IMG/VR virus record: IMGVR_UViG_3300032315_000520 | Coordinates: 1-22,554 of that record | Length of the DNA stretch: 22,554 nucleotides | Origin: a virus | Direction: 5' to 3' (one strand) | Shown here: one piece after another, positions 3,521-5,505 of the stretch | Layout of the letters: each line of letters opens with the position of its first letter | How positions within the stretch are numbered: position 1 is the first letter of the stretch | Position numbers and translations under genes: made by a program | The notes under the pieces: generated by a model | What the model saw: the letters and a program-made list of their open reading frames with translations, nothing else | Database searches by the model: none | What the model was told of the DNA's origin: nothing

Positions 3521-3549
3521 TTGCCAACCAACCGTCCTTGTGTTATAAT
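3521..3549 (+). promoter_or_regulatory. Sigma70-like promoter, strong
   Basis: TTGCCA (3521-3526), 17-nt spacer, perfect TATAAT (3544-3549) followed by GG. It sits in the gap between the CobS-like gene and the gene starting at 3602. Its leader shares the 13-mer TTGAGAAGGAATT, including the ribosome site, with the leader of the gene at 5784. Confidence 0.8.
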
Positions 3550-3601: not shown

Positions 3602-3946
3602 ATGGCATTAACAGTTCGTAAAGGCAAAATCAATCGTCACGAAAAAATCACTCAGGTATTATTGAGTGGCAAACCAGTATCGCCTGACGAGATTGCTGCC
3701 GTATTCAAAGGCACCGACCAAGAGTCTGTTTTATATCGCCTCTCGACCAACATCTACAACATTCGTAAAGATGGTGGCATCGTCAAAGTGATTAAATCTG
3801 GCCGTAAGGTAACAGGTTATCAGCTCGTAAACTTTACCGAGTTCGATGCTAATGGCCGATTCAAAGGCGCCACTAAGGCAGCTGCACCAGTTGCAAAAGC
3901 TGGCAAGGCAGTTGACCAATCTCAACCTGCTGAAGTAGCAGCCTAA
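3602..3946 (+). CDS. Small basic protein, winged-helix-like, unknown role
   Basis: This codes for a 114-aa protein. I chose ATG 3602 because it follows GAGAAGGAATT with good spacing; a longer reading from TTG 3521 would start inside the -35 box of the promoter. Residues 1-75 are basic and predicted to be mostly helical, ending in a short strand pair (GGIVKVIKSGRKVTGYQLV). This is the look of a small winged-helix/HTH fold that reads 'is the option on or off' style DNA sites, but I recognise no named family. The C-terminal third is Ala/Lys-rich and probably disordered. It has a strong promoter of its own, which suggests high and early expression. DNA binding is inference from composition and predicted fold only. 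Confidence 0.75.
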   Translation: MALTVRKGKINRHEKITQVLLSGKPVSPDEIAAVFKGTDQESVLYRLSTNIYNIRKDGGIVKVIKSGRKVTGYQLVNFTEFDANGRFKGATKAAAPVAKAGKAVDQSQPAEVAA

Positions 3947-3957
3947 TCGTAGAATCA

Positions 3958-4117
3958 AATATGGCCCCTCGGGAGAGGCCGCCATATTAAAGCACATCAT
4001 ACGAACCGATTACTCTGGTAGCAAAGGCGCAAGCTGATGGTGTGCTTTAATATGGTGTTGTACCATAAACCTCGGTTAACTCCGAGGCATTCATCGCAGT
4101 AAAGTTCCTGTTTATGG
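3958..4117 (+). ncRNA. Candidate structured RNA or leader upstream of the DUF262-HNH gene
   Basis: This non-coding stretch holds nested and competing inverted repeats. Hairpin A: AATATGGC (3958-3965) with GCCATATT (3981-3988), enclosing CCTC/GAGG. Stem B: 3982-4000 pairs with 4037-4055 over 19 consecutive positions (one G-U), loop 36 nt. Stem C: CCATAAAC (4063-4070) with GTTTATGG (4110-4117), enclosing the hairpin CTCGG (4071-4075)/CCGAG (4082-4086). Hairpin A and the base of stem B use the same bases (3982-3988), so they exclude each other, as in a switch. No poly-U run follows. No promoter is obvious directly upstream, so it may be read from the promoter at 3521. It could be a regulatory leader, a small RNA, a processing site, or a DNA-level element. 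Confidence 0.5.
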
Positions 4118-4155
4118 GAATTTGTTTTACCTTAACTTAATATGAGGAAATAATT

Positions 4156-5505
4156 ATGAGTAACAATGTAACAGTTTATATCAACAAAGACTATCCATTA
4201 AATTCGGATAAGATGTTCAATTTCAAAAACAAAATTGGACTAGACCTTTCATTTCAATCAGAAGCTCGGTGGGATCCTAAACAAAAGAGTGAGTTTATTA
4301 CCTCTTTGATTAAAGGTATGGCACCATCACGAATTATTGTTGCCAATATTGAAAGTTGTTTAGAAGAAGCTACAGAAGATTCATTGTGTTATAATTATTT
4401 CTCAGACTGGCAGAACCGCGGTAAAGAAGGTATCTCGATTGATGGTAATAATCGTACCATCACTATTGATGAGTACCTCAACGATAAGGTTGCAATTGAA
4501 CATGGTGAATACAATTTACCTACAGGTCCGGTTGTAATAAATGAGAAGAATGACCGTTTCAACACACACCCAAAACTATTAAAAGAACATATTACAAACA
4601 ATATTCGTATTTCTATTTGTGAATATGTCAAAGCAACTCGTTCGGACTTATCCGAATTATTCAAGAACATTAACAATGGCGTACCACTAAATGCACAAGA
4701 GTTGCGTAATGCTACTTTAGTGCCGTTCGCTGAAGAAGTCCGTAAGTTGGCCAAAGAATATTCTGGGGCATTTAAATATATCTTTAAGTCAAATGGTCGC
4801 CGTGCTATTGATGAACAGATTGTTAATATGTCTGTGTATTACGCTTATGGTGCATCTGAAGGTATTTCTAAGAAAGATAAAGACACAGCATACGATGACA
4901 ATTCAACGGTATGGAAAAACTTTAAGGGTGCCAAGAAAGCAATTGAAGATACATTAAAACTAGTTGACAAATATGCTAATGCTGGATTTAAAGACGTATC
5001 AACAATGATGAATTTGTTTATTGCTGTTTCTTATCTACAAAAAGAAAAGCGTAATATTGTAGATAAAGAAAAATTCTTTAAATGGTTCTTGTCTACTGAA
5101 AATGCTCGTGTTGGTGATTTTACCAAGTTGGTTGAAACTAAGACCGAGAGTCGTGACTATGAAGGTTGTAATACCAGTACGAGTAAAGAATATTTGATTG
5201 CTCGTTATGAATATATTTTAAAAGACTTACAGTTGGTTTCTTCTGATATTGTTACTGCTGTGGATCCTGAAAGATTGTTTAGTCGTGCTCAACGATATGA
5301 AATGTGGGCTCGACAAGGTGGTGTATGTACTCAAACAGGTAAAATTATACCTGAAGAAGATATTAACAATCACGAAGTGTGGGCTGCTGACCATGTAATT
5401 CCATATTCTAAAGGTGGACCAACTACGGTAGAAAATGGTGAATTGGTTTGTAAAGAATATAATTTGGCTAAAAGTAATAAGATGCCAGAATTATTGTCTG
5501 CGTAG
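4156..5505 (+). CDS. DUF262-HNH nuclease-like protein
   Basis: This codes for a 449-aa two-domain protein. The N-terminal DUF262 (ParB/sulfiredoxin-type) part shows DGNNRTITI (about residues 96-104) at the place of the family's DGQQR motif, and NGVPLNAQELRNA (about 174-186), a family hallmark. The C-terminal HNH domain (about 380-445) has C391, then AADHVIP with the catalytic-type D412-H413, then N427, C432 and N436. DUF262-HNH proteins include GmrSD-type modification-dependent restriction enzymes and SspE-type defence nucleases. Here the Q-Q of DGQQR is N-N, so nucleotide handling may differ. The start has GAGGAA upstream. Neighbours are a structured RNA before it and a tiny membrane protein 3 nt after it. 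The role in a phage is unknown: attack on rival or host DNA, or homing-type activity, are both possible. Confidence 0.85.
   Translation: MSNNVTVYINKDYPLNSDKMFNFKNKIGLDLSFQSEARWDPKQKSEFITSLIKGMAPSRIIVANIESCLEEATEDSLCYNYFSDWQNRGKEGISIDGNNRTITIDEYLNDKVAIEHGEYNLPTGPVVINEKNDRFNTHPKLLKEHITNNIRISICEYVKATRSDLSELFKNINNGVPLNAQELRNATLVPFAEEVRKLAKEYSGAFKYIFKSNGRRAIDEQIVNMSVYYAYGASEGISKKDKDTAYDDNSTVWKNFKGAKKAIEDTLKLVDKYANAGFKDVSTMMNLFIAVSYLQKEKRNIVDKEKFFKWFLSTENARVGDFTKLVETKTESRDYEGCNTSTSKEYLIARYEYILKDLQLVSSDIVTAVDPERLFSRAQRYEMWARQGGVCTQTGKIIPEEDINNHEVWAADHVIPYSKGGPTTVENGELVCKEYNLAKSNKMPELLSA

Follow-up and report, generated by a model that had tools for sequence, protein, structure and literature searches.

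The long stem downstream of a 114-aa gene in this viral DNA encloses a compact three-way RNA junction that is strongly conserved and is referred to here as the module. It is a phage structured RNA that is new to Rfam, is well supported and occurs at dozens of loci. The window, that is, the whole stretch analysed, comprises 22,554 nt (IMG/VR record IMGVR_UViG_3300032315_000520, positions 1 to 22,554), and the features on which the argument turns are the following, slots 1 and 2 being two sites between the 114-aa gene and the next gene.

3521..3549, + strand: TTGCCA-17-TATAAT, a promoter-like site of the extended -10 type that precedes the 114-aa gene; a match to consensus only
3602..3946, + strand: 114-aa gene, upstream; its relatives in viral contigs number at least 175, and neither Pfam nor PHROG has a family for it
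3958..3988, + strand: hairpin 1, in slot 1, AAUAUGGC/GCCAUAUU, with inner CCUC-GGGA-GAGG
3981..4000, + strand: 5' arm of P1, the long stem, in slot 2
3993..4044, + strand: span matched by covariance model R1, the complete module (66.5 bits, E 8e-18; the model includes the window sequence)
4002..4004, + strand: invariant joint CGA, preceded by A at 4001 facing G at 4036 (a C-G pair in other copies)
4005..4019, + strand: P2 hairpin, ACCG-loop-UGGU
4020..4025, + strand: invariant joint AGCAA(A)
4026..4035, + strand: P3 hairpin, GGC-GCAA-GCU, with a GNRA loop
4037..4056, + strand: 3' arm of P1
4063..4155, + strand: separate leader of the HNH gene, outside the module; its inner hairpin, 4070-4087, is common to L002 and L015
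4156..5505, + strand: GmrSD_N (DUF262)-HNH gene, neighbour of the module

The long stem pairs 3980/3981-4000 with 4037-4056/4057, giving 20–21 contiguous pairs (G-U allowed) within a region that is non-coding on the + strand. It is the longest contiguous stem of the whole 22.5-kb window (3980-4057), at 21 pairs against maxima of 13–19 in 20 block shuffles. The preliminary description, made from the letters of the window, had placed a stem at 3982-4000 with 4037-4055 and judged it too long for chance, and both statements hold, the stem being slightly longer than described. The folding energy of the long hairpin, 76 nt in length, is -31.0 kcal/mol (z -5.2), and none of 200 shuffles was equally stable. 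Judging from its consensus match, the candidate promoter at 3521-3549 would transcribe the 114-aa gene together with the hairpins.

Relatives were collected by core-pattern scans of viral contigs, which yielded dozens of copies; pattern matches without P1 (L104, L117, L125, L129, L136, L319, L344, L349, L360, L377, L399 and L403) were set aside. The consensus reads P1 - (A or C) - CGA - P2 (ACC..GGU or UCC..GGA) - AGCAA(A) - P3 - G - P1, and the sequence of P1 is wholly different between contexts, yet well paired in nearly all copies. Among 36 distinct model-aligned sequences, pairing is found in 94% of cells, and changes on both sides of a pair occur at 8/8 outer (P1) pairs and 3/3 P3 pairs. 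P2 changes as well, from A-U to U-A in L159 and L241 and, in many copies, from G-U to G-C with an extra pair. Covariation in these 36 sequences is 0.824, compared with 0.227 after shuffling; the alignment used for this final count (A4, model-based) is biased towards the model's own structure, and slid controls nonetheless reach at most 0.17. An earlier sequence-based alignment, in which MAFFT misplaced some P1 arms, gave 0.667 compared with 0.217. Compensatory changes above controls in most helices are what is expected of a conserved structured RNA, which the preliminary description had proposed. They are also what refutes the least credible of the alternatives, a palindrome that is mobile as DNA, or an inverted repeat due to chance, with no function as RNA: such an element would fit the presence of the module at several unrelated sites, but the compensatory changes remake the stem while the terminal sequence is unconserved.

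The identity of base 4001 is coupled to the second joint, which is mostly AGCAAA where that base is an A facing G and AGCAA where it is a C paired with G. Together with the invariance of the joints, this coupling indicates that the junction itself is under selection. L297 appears to have lost P3, and given this copy the full three-helix architecture may not always be required.

The same core recurs in tmRNA intervening segments, in the tmRNA leader, beside tRNAs and in the mRNA slot, and the outer-stem sequence is usually unrelated between these sites. The commonest location is the intervening segment of a permuted tmRNA gene, which separates the CCA end from the GGGGGUG 5' end (ARAGORN; Rfam RF04321/RF01850) and accounts for most copies; the copy in the window lies between two protein genes. 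In L105, L107, L118, L134 and L135 the module opens the permuted tmRNA transcript, beside promoter-like sequence. It follows the CCA end of tRNA-Met by 1 nt, immediately before a start region, in L425 and L351, is immediately upstream of tRNA-Gly or tRNA-Met in L428, L429 and their duplicates, and lies in a 5' UTR in L137. Every copy has the orientation of the RNA or gene next to it. Of 51 distinct tmRNA intervening segments that were fetched independently of the module, 10 hold it, 8 a small ORF and 9 are short, the other 24 holding structured inserts or protein-coding-like stretches; with 41 of the 51 lacking the module, tmRNA maturation does not require it. Phage permuted tmRNA genes thus have, in this discarded segment, a variable site for conserved RNA modules or small ORFs.

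Two model searches, which together covered 82 distinct records, found exactly one module in every record that matched, including records of 162 and 357 kb and a region with 26 tRNA genes; because the records are fragments of uncertain completeness, mostly chosen for the presence of the module or of the upstream gene, a single copy in each record does not prove a single copy in each genome. The module shifts place when another insert occupies the tmRNA site. In the 357-kb record and a 104-kb record it is in the mRNA slot and a small ORF is in the tmRNA site, and phages whose module is in the tmRNA leader carry an ORF or a different RNA at that site. Conversely, it is in the tmRNA when slot 2 holds content b (L025, L040), c (L014, L041, L053) or g (L057), and also in L017 and L071, where only hairpin 1 follows the 114-aa gene. 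Freshwater phages, an origin we infer from sample codes, seem to keep a single copy per genome whose location varies, the tmRNA gene being the most frequent site.

The two slots are apparent from about 70 comparable intergenic regions downstream of relatives of the 114-aa gene. Slot 1, directly 3' of the stop codon, may be filled by a plain intrinsic terminator, by the GGCCCCTCGGGAGAGGCC hairpin seen in the window or by a hairpin built around CTCGYTGTGAARCGC. Slot 2 is near the ribosome-binding site of the next gene; some relatives lack it, and in the others a long stem closes over one of several contents that are unrelated to each other. That of the window, the module, is shared with L004, L006-L008, L032, L038/L039, L050, L054 and L068, and is followed there by a NUMOD-type HNH gene, a GIY-YIG-like gene or one of several unrelated small genes.

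This arrangement bears on the suggestion that the hairpins form a switch or attenuator of the DUF262-HNH gene. As the preliminary description had it, a hairpin of 3958-3965 with 3981-3988 competes for the base of the long stem; the hairpin exists (-15.7 kcal/mol alone) and shares 8 nt with the stem, as it also does at the loci that have the same hairpin 1. The two are less exclusive than they appear, because when hairpin 1 is forced the long stem retains 13 pairs and its entire inner structure, at -34.2 compared with -39.7 (a cost of 5.5 kcal/mol), so that the conserved core stays intact in both alternative folds. Moreover, where relatives have another type of hairpin 1 (L038, L050, L054), slots 1 and 2 have no strand in common, and the competition is therefore not conserved, as it would be in a riboswitch or attenuator, whose mutually exclusive structures are coupled to a terminator or Shine-Dalgarno sequence. 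Since the HNH gene also occurs without the module, control of that gene by a riboswitch, attenuator or competing hairpins is largely refuted and must be considered very improbable.

The HNH nuclease is an incidental neighbour of the module and no partner of it, in disagreement with the earlier proposal of a regulatory leader or functional partner. Its only close relative in the viral collection (L002, 85% identical, after the same upstream gene) retains the gene's own leader, corresponding to window positions 4063-4155, and lacks the long hairpin, and the module precedes many unrelated genes, tRNAs and tmRNA. Within that leader, folding predicts the stem-loop at 4063-4117 that had been described; the one related leader (L002, L015) keeps its inner hairpin, with a compensatory change of CCUCGG/CCGAGG to CCUUGG/CCAAGG, and lacks the outer stem.

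Because the module is present in single copy, is free in its choice of position and has an invariant junction, we tentatively favour its being an accessory phage RNA whose junction binds a specific partner and which acts independently of its neighbours once exposed or released by processing. A phage would carry it once, as accessory cargo placed wherever a processed or intergenic transcript leaves space: in the intervening segment of its permuted tmRNA, at the start of that tmRNA, beside a tRNA or, as in the window, in the gap after the 114-aa gene. tmRNA precursors are reportedly cut by tRNA-processing enzymes (PMC11915505), and such cutting of the flanking RNA would probably free or expose the hairpin. 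The junction might then bind a protein, of either host or phage, or a second RNA, and the module would work independently of adjoining genes and RNAs. With more reserve, it is possible that the tmRNA segments and the hairpin slots by tRNAs and mRNAs are swap sites for cargo and that the single-copy module acts in trans, for example by inhibiting a host factor or serving as its decoy; equally guarded is the idea that such sites receive structured RNAs or tiny membrane peptides as an RNA counterpart of accessory-gene hot spots.

The main rival, which we regard as somewhat less likely, is a cis processing element, either a small self-cleaving ribozyme or a nuclease site, that separates neighbouring precursor RNAs. 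The module does lie within a few bases of RNA ends (L425/L351, L428/L429, and between CCA and the 5' end in permuted tmRNA), a closeness that suggests such an element equally well, its size and invariant joints resemble those of small ribozymes, and theta ribozymes have been reported beside phage tRNAs (PMC10879173). However, no Rfam ribozyme family matches it, it remains single even beside 26 tRNAs, small ORFs, short spacers or other RNAs can replace it in tmRNA, and the precursor of tmRNA is reportedly cut by the tRNA-processing enzymes mentioned above. Improbable, too, is a cis stability or boundary hairpin protecting transcript ends (3' of the 114-aa mRNA, 5' of the next), for which any compact cap would suffice. 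In many relatives slot 2 directly precedes the Shine-Dalgarno sequence of the next gene, an intrinsic terminator frequently fills slot 1 and several unrelated caps occur on similar stems, all as such a role would have it, but invariant joints combined with a fully diverged P1 are unexpected of a passive cap. Whether the module proved to be a new ribozyme or a phage RNA acting in trans, the result would be notable.

The module reaches the Rfam gathering score for no family in the window or in L084, L086, L096, L088, L095, L137, L425, L428 or L429, in keeping with the preliminary description, which had assigned the region to no known class; permissive scans of the window and L105 returned chance-level or tmRNA matches only. 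HEARO, the omega RNA of IscB, is a structured RNA associated with an HNH protein. The likeness ends at the proximity of a structured RNA to an HNH gene: the neighbour here is GmrSD_N-HNH rather than IscB, it is dispensable and its association is incidental, and the window has no Rfam match to HEARO. Sponges of the 3'ETS-leuZ type are spacers of tRNA precursors, and the module would resemble them, by analogy, in its proposed mode, as a spacer of a stable-RNA precursor with its own job; they have no sequence relation. The theta (HDV-like) ribozymes, found beside gut-phage tRNAs and proposed to separate precursor RNAs, are likewise small structured RNAs adjoining tRNAs of Caudoviricetes (PMC10879173). 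In contrast to their HDV-like fold, the module is a simple three-way junction whose invariant bases are different, lies mostly inside the permuted tmRNA of freshwater phages and has no Rfam match; it is a ribozyme candidate only. The permuted tmRNA intervening sequence (RF04321, RF01850; PMC11915505), absent from mature tmRNA, holds most copies, but these families leave the cargo unmodelled, aligned as an insertion, and the module also occurs outside tmRNA.

In GTDB genomes the core pattern gave 17 matches; none had the P1 stem in the displayed contexts and all were judged to be due to chance, so the module seems to be phage-borne. Searches of cultured phages gave no DNA match to the leader plus HNH gene, no relatives of the 114-aa protein and no match to the tmRNA hairpin, and no publication on the module was located in the open-access literature.

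Several other elements were observed at these sites. The CTCGYTGTGAARCGC core of slot 1 has the form CGUU-GUGA-AACG, with compensatory CGCU/AGCG and varied stems (L009, L017, L030, L037, L050, L054 and about 15 more). Other structured contents of slot 2 are b (L003, L025, L040, L032), g (L029, L057), i (L037, L043) and h (L031), and one alternative content has a T-arm-like hairpin, GAGGGTTCGAAACCTC; those alternative contents that were searched had no Rfam match. The sequence ATATGGTGTNGTACCATA directly after the long stem (window 4053-4068, L004, L008) recurs before differing endonuclease genes (DUF262-HNH, NUMOD-HNH) and perhaps marks their insertion. Directly upstream of the module, L137, L428, L383 and L398 share a conserved RNA-like segment, GCGGTGTGTAATAGTACGAT..GAGATACCCTCTT..CATAGCAGACCACCGC, and in L429 (about 770-980) roughly 200 nt of tmRNA-like sequence (GGGGGTGATTGGCTTCACC..), probably structured and with no Rfam call, separate a gene from the module.

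Within tmRNA, L105 (6438-6520) carries a different intervening RNA, pseudoknot-like (CUGCAAC/GUUGCAG) and with no Rfam match, its module being in the tmRNA leader. The small ORFs in phage tmRNA intervening segments are mostly hydrophobic, such as MKPYEVIVITLLTILILVHVFF and MTWDDIRRVKVLLTCYLLVIFALVFL, and end at the tmRNA 5' end (L107, intervening segment about 4904-4990 on the - strand; L210, L180, L219, L236, L255, L205, L449, L450). In L165, L166, L190, L253 and L270 the segment resembles coding sequence with the protein motif DWYYTENEWSRLG, as if a protein gene overlapped the tmRNA or had become fused with it.
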